Source: Leptospiraceae bacterium
GTDB lineage: Bacteria; Spirochaetota; Leptospiria; Leptospirales; Leptospiraceae
DNA length: 64,000 nt
NCBI GenBank assembly: GCA_022402465.1
Contig: JAKRSH010000014.1
Location: 62,001 to 126,000, forward strand
Direction: 5' to 3'
Part shown: one piece after another, positions 8,774 through 17,172 of the stretch
Layout: the number at the start of each line of letters is the position of its first letter
Position numbering within the stretch: the first letter of the stretch is position 1
Translations under genes and position numbers: made by a program
The notes under the pieces: generated by a model
Seen by the model: only the letters and a program-made list of their open reading frames with translations
Database searches by the model: none
What the model was told of the DNA's origin: nothing

Positions 8774-11173
8774 ATGGCAAACCCTACAGAACTCAACGAA
8801 GAAGATTTTTTGAAAGAAACATTTGAAGGAAGTTCAAATGGAATTTCGCAGGGTTCTGTTTATATTTTTTCACCTGATAGTCTTGGCTCCTTGAATCCTA
8901 CCGCAAGAGCCATCATGGATGAATTGAAAGATTGGCACAAAAGAGTCAAAGCACATGGTTCTAAAGAAATCCATCCATCTTATTTACTCACTCTAGATAA
9001 AGTTCCCGAAGCTCTCAACAAATTCAATAATCTTTCTGTTCAGAATAAGACGGAAGCGGCGATACACCTAGCTTTGAAACAAATTATTGACTTTGATAAA
9101 CGAGGTCAAAATCGGGTTGCATATATTTACCCATTTCTTGTACGAAATGGAAATAAAATTACTTCCAAAATCTCAATTATCTCTCCTCAAATTGAATCCA
9201 AAACAGATGTTATACCCTACAGGCAAGCTTGCCTAAGAGCATCCCAGGAATTAATTGACATGATTCTTTCCCATCGTGCCAAGAAGATACGAATTGTAGA
9301 TGAAGACACACCTGGTGCTTATTTATTCGCGAAAACAAAAAATGAAGAGTCATGGCTCTTTCCTAAACTAGCCTCCTTAGATTCTGAAATATCGAATTTA
9401 GTTAGAAAAGGTTTTGCACCTGTTCCACCTATTCCAATTCCTGAATTTACTGAAGATGTAATTCATTATGCGAAGGAACAGAAGTCTGTAGTTCAAATCC
9501 TACCCGATTACCACATTATTGTCGATGAACTAGAATTAAATGAAGATGGTTCTTTCAAGAGACAACCAGAAATAATCAATCAATATAGATCTCAAGTTGA
9601 TGGTTTAGAAAAGTTTATCGAAACCCATTTAAGAAAACTTGCAACAGAAATAAAATACGATTCGTACATCGAGAGAATGAATGAATTTCATGCTCAACAT
9701 GTTGTGGCAGTCGCTCATGGTAGAAGGCAGAATTCAGATAAAGCAAAAGCAATGATTGAATTGGTTGAATCTTTTCCATTTGAGAAAGCAACTTCCAATT
9801 ACGGTAAAAGAATCAAAGAAACTACCGACCTATCTATCAAAATTCTTAAAAAACTTTTAGTAGAAAAGGATCAAATCTTTGATCGCAAAGATGAATCTGT
9901 TTATGTAAAAATCCGTAAGCAAGTCATGGATAGAATTCCTGAATATACTAAGAATAATAATGTCCTTATGAAAATTGATTTCCCAGAAGAAATTGTTAAG
10001 ATGGGAATCAAAGAAGAAAAGCGTATCGAAGATCTTTCAAATCGTTTAAAGAATGATGTTACGGAAAAATTTTCATACCACGAATTCAAAAAAGAGAATG
10101 GGGATTCTATTTTTTATGTTGTCGACCATGGCTATATGTCTGCCGTATTGCATAAGTTAACTGCACATGCGAATGATAGCCCTGAATACAAAAGACAGCT
10201 TGATATTGCCAAAATCATCAATGATAAGCTATCCAATCCCAAGCATCCAGAACTAAATAGTAAACTCAGGCCTGAAATAATTGTTAAACTAAGTTCTGAT
10301 ATGCGTGAAATGGACAGAACGCACCAAGAAAAAATTCGAAACCAAGAGTTTCAAAAGAAAATAAATATACCAGCAGGTTTATTGAGTTTTACAGCTTCTA
10401 TATTAATTTTTGTAACCGCTTCTTACTACTTAAGGAGTCTAGTTCCAGTTGTCTTTGGTGTTCCCTTTTCTACTATAATAGGTGTTATGGCAGCCTACTT
10501 CTTCCGAGAAAAAAGCAATGATGAATTAAGAGCAGAAGTTTTGGCTTCAGGTAAATTTGGAACATTGGGCATAGATCATCATTCTTCTGGAACGGGAAAT
10601 TTTGGAATGATAGATATGCCAGGTGACAAAGCTGGTAGCGGAGGATTCTTTGGAACCTCTTCTTCTAAAACTGGGTCAACTTCTTCCTCAAAGGGCGATA
10701 CCATGGTATCGGAATCCAATGAAAAGAAAGAAGCTAAAATCTTGGATATTCTTCGTGCTGCGGATGGATTGGTTTTTCCTAAAAAATTTAATAAGATCAC
10801 TGAAAAAGTCATGGATCTCAAAACAATGAGAAAGAAAATATATGGTTCTCTAAAGGATATTCGTCGAAGAAACTTAACTATGAGTAAAGAAAGAGACGAT
10901 AATAAAGTAGCATCTACTGTAGAATTTGCCTTGGTTCAATCCAGTGCTATTATAAATTTTCCTGATGAAATCGCGATTAAAACTATGCCTAACACATTAT
11001 ATGTACTAAAGCATGATTTAAAGTCACCTTTATTTCGTGAACAGTTAGCTGATTCATATAGAGAAGAAATGAATAAGAAGAAGTTTGACAAAAAATTGGT
11101 AAAATACTATACTTTCTTAATTAATACGATTGAAATGGAATATTTCAAATATCTACCCAAGAAAAAGCTTTGA
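8774..11173 (+). CDS. Hypothetical 799-aa protein with a central hydrophobic membrane segment
   Basis: Long ORF 4 nt after avtA; hydrophobic segment IPAGLLSFTASILIFVTASYYLRSLVPVVFGVPFSTIIGVMAAYFF; no family recognised. Confidence 0.85.
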   Translation: MANPTELNEEDFLKETFEGSSNGISQGSVYIFSPDSLGSLNPTARAIMDELKDWHKRVKAHGSKEIHPSYLLTLDKVPEALNKFNNLSVQNKTEAAIHLALKQIIDFDKRGQNRVAYIYPFLVRNGNKITSKISIISPQIESKTDVIPYRQACLRASQELIDMILSHRAKKIRIVDEDTPGAYLFAKTKNEESWLFPKLASLDSEISNLVRKGFAPVPPIPIPEFTEDVIHYAKEQKSVVQILPDYHIIVDELELNEDGSFKRQPEIINQYRSQVDGLEKFIETHLRKLATEIKYDSYIERMNEFHAQHVVAVAHGRRQNSDKAKAMIELVESFPFEKATSNYGKRIKETTDLSIKILKKLLVEKDQIFDRKDESVYVKIRKQVMDRIPEYTKNNNVLMKIDFPEEIVKMGIKEEKRIEDLSNRLKNDVTEKFSYHEFKKENGDSIFYVVDHGYMSAVLHKLTAHANDSPEYKRQLDIAKIINDKLSNPKHPELNSKLRPEIIVKLSSDMREMDRTHQEKIRNQEFQKKINIPAGLLSFTASILIFVTASYYLRSLVPVVFGVPFSTIIGVMAAYFFREKSNDELRAEVLASGKFGTLGIDHHSSGTGNFGMIDMPGDKAGSGGFFGTSSSKTGSTSSSKGDTMVSESNEKKEAKILDILRAADGLVFPKKFNKITEKVMDLKTMRKKIYGSLKDIRRRNLTMSKERDDNKVASTVEFALVQSSAIINFPDEIAIKTMPNTLYVLKHDLKSPLFREQLADSYREEMNKKKFDKKLVKYYTFLINTIEMEYFKYLPKKKL

Positions 11174-14100
11174 ATTTTACAATCCTCTCATTTTTTACTA
11201 AAATCTTAATATTCATTATTTTCATTTCAAATTATAATTTGTTAGCTGAGGACTTCAGCGACCTAGAGGAAACCAGAGTTAAAGTTTATGGATCAGAAAA
11301 AGATAAAAAATATCGTTTAGATGGCTTTTTTATAGAGTGGGAGAATTGGCCCAGAGAAAATCCAAGCCACAATCATTTTCATTTTTTTTGGTTTGCAAAC
11401 ACTACCAATTATCCTAAATTCAAAAAGAATCAAGTATTTCCTTTTTTTTCAAATATAGAAAGCAAGATAGATCCAAGAAAATCAACGAATTATCTACTCT
11501 TATATAACTCTAGTGTTGATCGTGACAAAAATGAAACTACTATCTTATTTCCTTTTTATTTTGCTGGAAATAGCTCAATCAATAATTCAAATTATCTGGG
11601 AATTTTTCCTTTCTTTTACAAGAGTAATAAGAATTTAAATTCTTATAATGAAAGTAAATTACTTCTACCTGGATTTTATAAAACTGCAGAGAATGATTTT
11701 AAAAATAAAGAATCCTCTAAATTTATAATTTCCCCTTTCTATGTTTCTAATTCATCCAAGTCCCAAGATATAGAATATTCAAAATCCTGGTTCCCAATTA
11801 TTCCATTCTATTATACAGCAGAAGATAATAAGAATAAGCATAATAATATTATCTGGCTATTAGATACGAATCACAATAAATTGACTGAAAAAATTGATAG
11901 ATTTTGGTTCTTACCAATCTTTTATTGGAAAAAAGAGGAATACTTAAATATATTTCCTCTTTATTTCAATAAACTATCTAAGACTGAAGATTCTAATGTT
12001 TGGTTCGGAATTATTCCTCCGATTTACAGAAGTTATTCGCCCAATCATTCGACTTTTTACTTTTTAAATTTCTACAAATCTACCCAAAAGATATCCACTA
12101 CGAAAGATTCTTTTACAACATTCTTTCCATTCTATTTTCACTCTAATAATAATCAAAATGAATCTTTCACTCTATTCCCGATTTTATATCTAAATCAAAA
12201 AGATAAGGATTCTTCTTCTCACACCAATCTTTTGCTTTTATATGATCATGGCTTAGATAAAGATAGCAATCTCAATAGATTGTGGTTGATGCCGTTTTAT
12301 TTTTATAAAAAAGATATTTACAATTATATTGTTCCTTTCTTTTTTCAAAATTCTAATAAGAACAAGCAACAAAATGAGATTTCTTCTAATTCATGGTTTG
12401 GAGTTCTTCCACCTATTTATAGAAGCTATTCTCAAAACCATTCTACATTCTATTTAATAAATTTTTTTACATCAAACAAGAAAGATAAATCTAAAGAAGA
12501 GAATGTTACAATTTTCTTTCCATTTTATTTTGATTCAAATAATTCATTGAATGAATCAATGACTTTTATTCCTCTTCTTTATTTCAACAATCGTGAGACA
12601 AATTTAAAATCTCATACTAATGTTTTGCTAGCATATGACCATTCCCTAGACCAAGAAGGAAATTTAAATCGCTTATGGATAATGCCTTTTTATTTTTACA
12701 AAAAAAACTCCTATCAATATATTGTTCCTTTCTACTTCGGAAATGATGAGTCGACACAATTTCAAGATAGTACAACATGGGGACCATTTTATTACATAAG
12801 GAAGACTGAGTCAGTTCATGAGAAATATTTTCTATTGTACTACGAAAGCCAAGAGAAGGGAAAATTTATTGACTCTCATCTAACAAATATTTTCCCATTT
12901 TTCTATTCATGGGATACTAAAACTAGCAAAGTAATACAAGCAAGGACTGAATTCAATAAAGGATTCTATCTTTTTCCAATTTTTTATAGAAATGAAAACA
13001 CGAACAGGGAAACCTATTCTAACTTAGTCGGACTAGTAAGTTGGACCAAGGATAATAAAGACGAACTGATTCAGAATACTATCTTTCCTGTTAGGTTTTA
13101 TAAAAAAGATTCATATTCAATATGGTTTCCTTTTAGTTTTCAATTTTGTAAAACTGAAACATCTTCAGAGACTGGAAAAAGATGGGGAGCTTTCTTTTAC
13201 TCAAGTTGGTCACCCGAAGAAGAAAAATTTTGGATATTCAACTATTACTCCTACCAAGATAAGAAGAAAGATTTGCATTCTAAAACTTTTTTCCCGATCT
13301 ATCATTCGTGGAAAAAAGAAAATTCTAATGGCACTTTAGTTTTTCCATTTTATATAGATGCAGATTTTCGTGATGAGAAGGATAAAGATAAATTTAATAA
13401 TTTTAATTTAAACATCTTAGGCATAGCATCCCAAACATCCAAGGGAATTTTTCAACCTAGCTTTTCATTTGATGGAGGAAAAAAATCCAAATACTACTAT
13501 TTAGATACAGATATATCATGGTTGTATTATGCATTTCGTATCTCCAATCGAACTAGCAATAAGTTTATTAAAGATTTATTGCCTGGAGAAAAGCCAGATC
13601 CTTCGAGTTTAGGATTAATAACAAGCTCAGAAGATTCAAAGTCACCGCGAGTCAATTCAAAGAAATCTTTTACTCGAGAAGATTCATTTAATTTCATTGG
13701 TGTGAATGTACTTTTTGGAGTATTTGGTTATGAGGCAGCCGATACACAACGTCACATTCGATTGCTCCCACTTGCTTGGTTTACATACGATACAGAAGTA
13801 GATGAGAATATTTATGCAGGTCCTTTACCCTTACCCTTTGTTTGGTATTCATCGGCTAACCTTAAGTATAGAGTAATTTTTCCTATCTATGGATACCAAA
13901 ATTCCGAGGACGCAGAAAGACATTCCTATGGATTATTTATTTTCTTAAAGGAAGCATTGGTTGAGAATAACACACAGGAAACTTCTGTGGTCTGGCCATT
14001 TATCAATTGGCATGAATCTGACATTAAGTCAGGTTCAAGAGTCTTGCCTTTTTATTGGCAGAGAACCTCGAAAGAAGAGAAAGAAATATCTGATTCCTTA

Positions 14101-17100
14101 ATTATTCCTCTTGGTTTGACCTACTTAAATAAAACAACTAACAATCAAAATATTTCTACTAAAACATGGATTTCACCATTTTTGTTTAGGAATGACAGTC
14201 CCTACGAAGATGGAAAGATCGAGAGAATTTATTCGCCTTTTGCCTTGTTTTATTGGAGTAGCACTCTCACATCCAAAATAGAAGATAAAGTTTTTCTTTC
14301 ACCGATTTTTTTCAATTTTGCAACAAAACAAAAGGATAACAAGCAGACTCAATTTTCAAATTTTTGGTTGGTACCTATTATAGGATTCGAATCTGAATCG
14401 AATGATGATTATTGGTTGAACTATTTTATTTTTTACAATAAATCAAAATCTGCTAAGGAAGACAGCATAACAATATTTCCTTTATATAGTGAAACGAATC
14501 AATACAATAAAAGTGAATTAGTAAATCAGTCTAACTTTTACTTCCCATTATTTCCTATACTAACTAGTTATAAGCCGATCCATTCTGAGAATACTAAAGA
14601 GCAATTCAGAATAATTTCTCCTTTCTTGTTTTCTACTTCAATCAAAACCAAAGAAGAATCATTATACCGAGAACAACTCTATCCTATTCCTTTATTTTAT
14701 TCTGAATTTGATAAATCAAGCGATACAAATTTTTATAGTTTATTATTGCTATTCCAGTTTGAATCAAAGCCTACAGAAGAAGTATATAGAATATTTCCAA
14801 TTCTACAGCTATCGAATCATACAGTTCAAACAAATTCAACAAGACAATCGAGGAATTGGATCCTGCCTTTGTATTGGAAATCAAATTATGAATACCTCGA
14901 TAAGAACCTAAAGCAAATTGAAGAAAAGAAATTCATATCGCTTCCCTATGCATCCTTTTCTTCCAAAGAAAGCAAAACAATAGTAGTTCCACCGCTTCTT
15001 TATTATTCAAGATCCAATAATAAAGAAAATTTCCAAAGTATATTTTTCTTAGCAAATCACACAGAGAATGAAGAATTTGAAAGTTATAATTTCTTTCCTT
15101 TTTATCATTACTTTTCTACAAAACCAAGCTTGGGTAAGTCTTCAGAAATTGATGAGAAGATAAATACAAATGATAAACTATCTTTAAATCAAAAGTCCAA
15201 CAAGAATCCAAGGAAAGACGATTCAATTCTTGCACCAAATATACATTATGTGAATCGACTCTTTCCTTTTTACTCATACAAAACGAAAGATACAAATTCT
15301 GGCACACCTGTAAGTAAAGAATTCTTAAGTATCTTTTATACCTTAAGTTCAGAATATAATAAAAGTGGTGAATTAGATAATTCCATATACTGGATACCTC
15401 CTCTATTGTACTCAAATGAAAGAAATCAAATTGGTTCAGAATGGACTTGGCTATTTTTCATTCGATCAAATTCCAGTGCAAATTCTAACTCGATGCAAAT
15501 TTTTCCAATATTTCATACTTCAACTTCTACAGAAAAAAATATCATTCAAAATAAAAATTGGTTATTTCCTATTTACTATTTTAATACAGAAGTATCAACT
15601 AAGAATGATAATATCGAAAGCTTAACAATTTTACCATTTTTGTTGTACTATTCAAGCTCAGATAAAGATGAAGAATACTACAATTGGATGTTTATCGCCA
15701 ATTATAAAAATTCGAACAAATCTAATTCAGTCAATTTCTTTCCTCTCTATCATTATTATTCAACGAATCCAAGTTATAAAGGAGAACAAGAATACAACAA
15801 TAGATTTATTCCTTTTTATTCTTATTCATCTAAGACAAGTGCAGATGGCAAACCAATCGAGACTAATTTCCTAAGCTTATTCTATGCGAGTGCATCAAGC
15901 TATAATGAGAAGGCTGAATTAAACTTATCAAAATTCTGGATTCCATTTGCTCTCTACTCTCAGCAGCATACTCCCGGTTCATCGGAATGGACTTGGCTAT
16001 TTTTCATAAAATCAGAATCATCAGCAAGTAAAGATTCATTTAATATTTATCCTATCTATCATTCTTCTTCAAGTAAAGAAATTGAAGCTAATAAATCAAA
16101 AAACTGGTTCTTTCCTCTTTATTTTTATACTTCAGAACAATCGAAGGATCTTACAAACAAATCTAAGCAACAATCAATAAATACAAAGTTAAAATCTAAT
16201 GAAAATAAATTATTGAATAATGAAATCGATTCAAAACTATTTGTTTCATTATTTTTTAGATACTCATCCTATTTAAAGTCAAAACAAAAGGATGATTACT
16301 ATACATCTCTTTCCTTTCCTATTATACCCCTCATATACAGTGAATCTAGTTTAGATTCTTCTCATCTAAATTTATTCTACCTCTTCGATCGCAAAGTAGA
16401 AGAAGACCAATTGACTCGTTTCTTTCTTTTTCCATATTACTATGAAAATGATGATCCTAAAAATACTAAATCTACATCCTACCATCATTTGATTCCATTT
16501 TATTTTTCAGGAATTGATGATGAGGAATATTCAGCATTTATCACTGGTTTGTATATTAATTCTACCAAAAGAAGTACTTATAAAAATTTCTTATTCCTTC
16601 TTGAGCAAGAAAGCTATAAAGATATATCCGCTTTTGAATTCAATTTATTATTTAGAGCTTTACATTATGAAACAACAGATTCAACATCCAATTTTAAATT
16701 CATCTATGGTCTAGGGGAAGTCGATTTAAAAGAAAATCAAACGCAAATGAATTTAGCTTGGCTAGGCTATGAGAATACTTCAGAATCGAATTATTTAAAT
16801 CTTTTACCTTTGTATTATAAAGATGTTACAAAATCAAAAGATTTTGAATGGATTACTCCTTTACTGTACTTTTCAAAGATCAATCCAAAAGAAAAATTGG
16901 AACATTCTACTTTAGGACTTGTATATTATAATTCTGAAAATTTGGAAACTAAAGAGTCTTTACAAAGTGTTCTATTGGGAATACTTTATTACAAGACAGT
17001 GAAGCCTAAAGAAAGAGGTTACACAGGTAGAGGAAGTTTATGGGGAGCACTCTGGGAATACAATACAGAAGATGAAACGAATTATTCCAAATTTTCTATT

Positions 17101-17172
17101 CTTAAAATTCTCTATTCCCGAAGAGAAGATGACCAAGGCGTTCGACATAGAATTTTATTTTTAGAATTTTGA
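11170..17172 (+). CDS. Giant (2000 aa) secreted/outer-membrane-like repeat protein rich in FPFYY-type aromatic motifs
   Basis: TTG start overlapping the upstream TGA (TTGA); N-terminal signal-peptide-like FFTKILIFIIFISNYNLLAED; repeats such as WFGIIPPIYRSYS, FFPFYF, LNRLWLMPFYFYKKD, EWTWLFFI; C-terminus ...RHRILFLEF ending in Phe. Confidence 0.9.
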   Translation: MNFTILSFFTKILIFIIFISNYNLLAEDFSDLEETRVKVYGSEKDKKYRLDGFFIEWENWPRENPSHNHFHFFWFANTTNYPKFKKNQVFPFFSNIESKIDPRKSTNYLLLYNSSVDRDKNETTILFPFYFAGNSSINNSNYLGIFPFFYKSNKNLNSYNESKLLLPGFYKTAENDFKNKESSKFIISPFYVSNSSKSQDIEYSKSWFPIIPFYYTAEDNKNKHNNIIWLLDTNHNKLTEKIDRFWFLPIFYWKKEEYLNIFPLYFNKLSKTEDSNVWFGIIPPIYRSYSPNHSTFYFLNFYKSTQKISTTKDSFTTFFPFYFHSNNNQNESFTLFPILYLNQKDKDSSSHTNLLLLYDHGLDKDSNLNRLWLMPFYFYKKDIYNYIVPFFFQNSNKNKQQNEISSNSWFGVLPPIYRSYSQNHSTFYLINFFTSNKKDKSKEENVTIFFPFYFDSNNSLNESMTFIPLLYFNNRETNLKSHTNVLLAYDHSLDQEGNLNRLWIMPFYFYKKNSYQYIVPFYFGNDESTQFQDSTTWGPFYYIRKTESVHEKYFLLYYESQEKGKFIDSHLTNIFPFFYSWDTKTSKVIQARTEFNKGFYLFPIFYRNENTNRETYSNLVGLVSWTKDNKDELIQNTIFPVRFYKKDSYSIWFPFSFQFCKTETSSETGKRWGAFFYSSWSPEEEKFWIFNYYSYQDKKKDLHSKTFFPIYHSWKKENSNGTLVFPFYIDADFRDEKDKDKFNNFNLNILGIASQTSKGIFQPSFSFDGGKKSKYYYLDTDISWLYYAFRISNRTSNKFIKDLLPGEKPDPSSLGLITSSEDSKSPRVNSKKSFTREDSFNFIGVNVLFGVFGYEAADTQRHIRLLPLAWFTYDTEVDENIYAGPLPLPFVWYSSANLKYRVIFPIYGYQNSEDAERHSYGLFIFLKEALVENNTQETSVVWPFINWHESDIKSGSRVLPFYWQRTSKEEKEISDSLIIPLGLTYLNKTTNNQNISTKTWISPFLFRNDSPYEDGKIERIYSPFALFYWSSTLTSKIEDKVFLSPIFFNFATKQKDNKQTQFSNFWLVPIIGFESESNDDYWLNYFIFYNKSKSAKEDSITIFPLYSETNQYNKSELVNQSNFYFPLFPILTSYKPIHSENTKEQFRIISPFLFSTSIKTKEESLYREQLYPIPLFYSEFDKSSDTNFYSLLLLFQFESKPTEEVYRIFPILQLSNHTVQTNSTRQSRNWILPLYWKSNYEYLDKNLKQIEEKKFISLPYASFSSKESKTIVVPPLLYYSRSNNKENFQSIFFLANHTENEEFESYNFFPFYHYFSTKPSLGKSSEIDEKINTNDKLSLNQKSNKNPRKDDSILAPNIHYVNRLFPFYSYKTKDTNSGTPVSKEFLSIFYTLSSEYNKSGELDNSIYWIPPLLYSNERNQIGSEWTWLFFIRSNSSANSNSMQIFPIFHTSTSTEKNIIQNKNWLFPIYYFNTEVSTKNDNIESLTILPFLLYYSSSDKDEEYYNWMFIANYKNSNKSNSVNFFPLYHYYSTNPSYKGEQEYNNRFIPFYSYSSKTSADGKPIETNFLSLFYASASSYNEKAELNLSKFWIPFALYSQQHTPGSSEWTWLFFIKSESSASKDSFNIYPIYHSSSSKEIEANKSKNWFFPLYFYTSEQSKDLTNKSKQQSINTKLKSNENKLLNNEIDSKLFVSLFFRYSSYLKSKQKDDYYTSLSFPIIPLIYSESSLDSSHLNLFYLFDRKVEEDQLTRFFLFPYYYENDDPKNTKSTSYHHLIPFYFSGIDDEEYSAFITGLYINSTKRSTYKNFLFLLEQESYKDISAFEFNLLFRALHYETTDSTSNFKFIYGLGEVDLKENQTQMNLAWLGYENTSESNYLNLLPLYYKDVTKSKDFEWITPLLYFSKINPKEKLEHSTLGLVYYNSENLETKESLQSVLLGILYYKTVKPKERGYTGRGSLWGALWEYNTEDETNYSKFSILKILYSRREDDQGVRHRILFLEF
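11995..12780 (+). repeat. Two tandem copies of a 393-bp (131-aa) unit inside the giant ORF
   Basis: NVWFGIIPPIYRSYSPNHSTFYFLNFYKS... from 11995 and NSWFGVLPPIYRSYSQNHSTFYLINFFTS... from 12388; NLNRLW[LI]MPFYFYKK recurs at the same 393-nt offset (12268 and 12661). Confidence 0.9.
15244..16140 (+). repeat. Degenerate duplication with 546-bp period inside the giant ORF
   Basis: The 23-nt string gaatggacttggctatttttcat occurs at 15439 and 15985 (546 nt = 182 codons); flanking protein similarity RLFPFYSYKTK...FLSIFYTLSSEYNKSGELDNSIYWIPPLLYS versus RFIPFYSYSSK...FLSLFYASASSYNEKAELNLSKFWIPFALYS. Confidence 0.88.

Follow-up and report, generated by a model that had tools for sequence, protein, structure and literature searches.

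The open reading frame at positions 11170..17172 (+ strand) of the window, the whole 64,000-nucleotide stretch of DNA analysed here, starts with TTG and encodes a giant repeat protein of 2000 aa that belongs to the LA_1737 family and is present as one copy in its own genome. Our preferred but tentative reading, to which we assign a probability of roughly 0.4, is that of an elongated beta-repeat protein that is exported and takes part in handling envelope lipids. According to this model, the giant would be an exported, elongated all-beta repeat laid out between conserved N- and C-terminal caps around a central block, and would represent the expanded relative of a compact protein whose gene comes first in a spirochaete operon for MlaE/MlaF/MCE lipid transport. 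As the giant has a 19-residue repeat in common with this compact protein, whose gene lies beside those of a lipid-transport pump, it probably aids lipid handling between the two membranes. Neither MlaE nor MCE ORFs were encountered at any of the 22 giant loci examined, so that the connection of the giant to lipid transport is one of homology alone; export, membrane location, lipid binding, bridging and giant-MCE contact are all features that we infer.

Residues 1-26 of the giant (11170..11247, +) resemble, when read by eye, a Sec signal peptide that lacks a lipobox, in agreement with the signal-like N-terminus of the original prediction, and its relatives show a similar hydrophobic start ahead of a common [WF]xDL...YGSEK motif. 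This segment is followed by an N-terminal cap (residues 27-105; 11248..11484, +; DFSDL...YGSEK...SKIDPR) that is conserved in relatives phylum-wide, with the YGSEK motif found in most complete ones. The body of the giant is an expandable array of about 100 beta units of 19 residues around the conserved block at residues 838-973. In the smoothed hydrophobicity, maxima recur at lags near 19, 38 and 57 residues, aromatic residues account for 19.6% of the chain, and the dozens of short aromatic strands noticed at the outset stood up to counting: the motif [FLI][FLI]P[FLI][YF][YF] occurs 13 times versus 0.05 expected from shuffles, and a broader hydrophobic-Pro-hydrophobic core 41 times versus 1.9. 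Pairwise alignment uncovered two tandem duplications, one of about 126 residues (229-354 / 355-490; 11854..12639, +; 56/118 identical, score 326 versus at most 75 in shuffles), the other of about 182 residues (1292-1475 / 1507-1657; 15043..16140, +; 72/182 aligned columns identical, score 373 versus at most 88). A low-complexity linker at about residues 797-834 (13558..13671, +) is variable among relatives and of low model confidence. The earlier notion of an exported beta-repeat protein of very large size is supported.

The central block (residues 838-973; 13681..14088, +) is covered by no Pfam or NCBIfam model. It was present in 30 of 32 proteins examined, the remaining two being partial ORFs, and among 27 non-redundant relatives (alignment A6) the residues D858, H862, R864, P867, W870, W942, G955, R957 and P960 are near-invariant. 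Weaker copies of the block were also detected by its profile along the same giant proteins, so that the entire chain appears to consist of a single repeat that has diverged. Over the phylum, the block profile matched 75 of 395 genomes, partly via the genes of the compact family, most of which encode 480-640 aa.

At its C-terminal end (residues 1854-1992; 16729..17145, +), the giant matches NF047486 (LA_1737_Cterm) with an E-value of 9e-31 and 106.9 bits (cut-off 60), as did 10/10 relatives scanned ("LA_1737 family protein"). The original description as an unrecognised family therefore needs qualification with respect to the C-terminus and holds otherwise, as this entry is a family name without a function, covers the C-terminal 158 positions only and includes neither the N-terminal cap nor the repeats nor the central block, with no model extending over the rest. 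Complete LA_1737 proteins range from about 940 to 2330 aa. NF047486 is spread patchily over the phylum, with matches in 51 of the 395 genomes sampled, and the named matches all derive from spirochaete genomes assembled from metagenomes. For the giant, no Pfam family exceeded the cut-off, no PDB chain matched its sequence, and a PHROGs search returned nothing usable; a viral-contig scan and a plasmid scan with the C-terminal domain gave no match. No paper on LA_1737 was found among open-licence papers, and LIC12048, considered as a gene of the family, was discarded since the LIC12048 papers treat a different gene, LA1762/LA1764.

Perhaps more important than the giant itself is the compact relative of 497 aa encoded on another contig of the same genome (L098:6095-7588; G000:C20), for which searches in Pfam, NCBIfam, PHROGs and PDB gave no match. 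By sequence comparison, it is a homologue of the giant: profile comparison yielded a probability of 97.8% (E 1.3e-12) for the central block and of 98.1% (E 1.1e-13) for whole relatives. The compact HMM found the giant with an E-value of 7.2e-25 (best single stretch 6.7e-14) and covered most of it in 12 stretches, versus 0.18 or worse for reversed and shuffled controls. The compact protein of this genome likewise has a hydrophobic N-terminal stretch. Its family has a median aromatic content of 21.8%, and the 19-residue period is barely weaker over 190 residues, with evenly spaced units instead of an alternation between short and long loops. LA_1737 giants are therefore no longer isolated hypothetical proteins but testable relatives of the compact protein.

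In the own genome, genes for MlaE, an MlaF-like ATPase, an MCE protein and LpxC come after the compact gene, and a D-Ala-D-Ala ligase is encoded on its other flank. Among 53 compact loci, the gene lies directly upstream of MlaE in 43, usually together with MlaF and MCE genes; in 41 of these, MlaE was the next same-strand downstream ORF in an ORF scan, and two were assigned by coordinates (L128, L150). Three further loci run off the end of a contig (L100, L110, L120) and one (L144) is without assignment, while six loci with enough flanking sequence have no MlaE link (L103, L105, L109, L119, L124, L127). The latter speak against the lipid-handling reading, as does the possibility that proteins with a repeat in common have put it to different uses. 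A compact gene was found at none of 40 other MlaE loci. As these were drawn mainly from genomes without a compact match or represent second MlaE copies, with MlaE not re-detected in two, the comparison ties the compact gene to one kind of MlaE locus and is no unbiased census. Side by side with this, the own genome has a second MCE-type system devoid of a compact gene (L151:836-4408; G000:C2), whose MlaE-containing protein (378 aa) carries an additional N-terminal part and which further comprises an ATPase, an MCE protein of 317 aa and a protein of 210 aa that starts like a lipoprotein. At four MlaE loci lacking the compact gene (L153, L155, L156, L158), a gene of 435-484 aa comes after MCE instead, possibly encoding a different partner.

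Lipid traffic to and from the outer membrane of spirochaetes is little understood. MlaA and MlaC profiles found no match in the own genome under conditions where the E. coli control was positive, and the TamB profile of Pfam had no match there either. Located before MlaE at most loci examined and free of Pfam and NCBIfam matches, the compact gene is a concrete candidate for a missing partner. Some bacteria without MlaA/MlaC, such as Veillonella, are thought to bridge the envelope by a long MlaD (PMC10665443). The genome studied here resembles Veillonella in its lack of MlaA and MlaC matches, and the compact relative is part of an MlaE/MlaF/MCE operon as in Mla/MCE systems; however, unlike the long MlaD, the MCE proteins encoded beside compact genes have a length of just 187-322 aa, which makes a separate partner plausible. 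In contrast to components of Mla/MCE systems, the giant itself is encoded outside such an operon and has no MCE domain. A more far-reaching version would see proteins built of the 19-residue beta-repeat as lipid conduits of a new, trans-envelope class, which take the place of MlaA/MlaC or of the long MlaD and form the periplasmic or outer-membrane half of a spirochaete MCE system, with the giant as the version long enough to cross the periplasm; we regard this as unlikely. A trans-envelope bridge as such, already envisaged in the original prediction, is a live option for the giant. Like the TamB/AsmA bridges, the giant is long, repetitive, beta-rich and possibly periplasm-spanning, but a kinship with these proteins was not borne out, considering the Pfam results for the giant and the genome as well as a two-residue hydrophobicity alternation of 0.97 versus 1.59 for E. 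coli TamB, the latter also having an aromatic content of only 5.4%.

Its exported appearance, large size, repetitiveness, recent internal duplications and patchy occurrence would also suit a surface adhesin or matrix binder, the aromatic patches of which bind glycans or host/environmental polymers and the length of which varies by tandem duplication. A freely varying adhesin would, however, need neither fixed N- and C-terminal caps nor a near-invariant polar central block, and the position of the compact relative beside an inner-membrane lipid pump and LpxC is at odds with such a role as well, making the adhesin a doubtful proposition. Fixed ends and an expandable middle within a long regular array are what one would expect of a periplasmic structural spacer or scaffold, which would define or span the gap between membranes or cell wall but transport no lipid. 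Here, the near-invariant polar residues D858, R861, H862, R864, N946 and R957, which look like a putative binding site, and the fact that the compact relative travels with lipid-transport genes argue in the other direction, so that we consider a mere spacer improbable.

As to the fold of the giant, AlphaFold2 models are too weak to settle the matter. A 1093-aa relative modelled at full length gave a poor model (mean pLDDT 38.7), and giant residues 590-1010 reached a pLDDT of 60.9 overall and of 73-85 per ten-residue block at 890-1010. This partial model of residues 590-1010 is predicted to consist of short strands of 5-8 residues with tight turns between them. Foldseek returned no convincing match; the better ones for the central model were open or stacked beta-meanders (MORN, OspA, propellers), with probabilities of 0.94-0.99 for two MORN proteins and of 0.96 for an OspA mutant at TM-scores of only 0.15-0.29. 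The series of short hairpins in the central model is reminiscent of MORN proteins and of the single-layer sheet of OspA, but neither matches the giant in sequence, and the likeness should be taken as a hint at the kind of fold rather than as a family assignment. Matches of the 1093-aa relative model to teneurin, Rhs and DDB1 had TM-scores of at most 0.1 and were read as no more than many short strands in succession.

An outer-membrane beta-barrel or channel, giant or segmented, such as the giant barrel suggested in the original prediction, would be in line with the all-beta prediction with short strands, the very high aromatic content and the hydrophobic C-terminal strand seen in many relatives. 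We calibrated the alternation test with six E. coli barrels (1.25-1.46), TamB, BamB (1.05) and two cytoplasmic controls (about 1.0); against this scale, the giant and the family set of 23 sequences (0.75-1.07) fall below the barrels, and the compact family lacks two-residue alternation as well (median 0.98). The C-terminal Phe is present in the giant, as claimed, but is no family trait, as it terminates 4 of the 23 printed LA_1737 relatives with the giant counted among them. A possible exception is the region of residues 590-840, where the family-averaged profile does show two-residue alternation (ratio 1.5-2.1, z 2.2-3.7) and part of the chain may be membrane-inserted; several thresholds and region boundaries, among them this region, the 9-residue window and the first-two-ORF rule, were chosen during the analysis and not beforehand. 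A SlipAM search of the own genome gave no match, the controls likewise being without a match. Given the low alternation, Pro in the strand centres, the lack of a conserved terminal Phe, the even 19-residue spacing in the compact family and the absence of outer-membrane barrels from the top 50 PDB Foldseek matches (for query models of low confidence), a giant barrel is not supported and seems unlikely.

The stop codon of the preceding 799-aa gene (8774..11173, +) overlaps the giant's TTG start. This gene is without a Pfam match over the cut-off and is kept in 8/8 genomes of the bacterial family, but in the relatives it lies elsewhere than beside the giant, and we therefore dismissed it as a conserved partner. 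Sensor-kinase-like ORFs near giant genes at 11 of 23 loci were not counted as evidence, since their grouping reflects common signalling domains and a lineage that the loci share. Two giant LA_1737 genes can also stand in tandem, as observed in one relative (L043:4206-14800; 2026 and 1462 aa) and, as a further pair, in a more distant one (L059:3182-13903; 2266 and 1284 aa).
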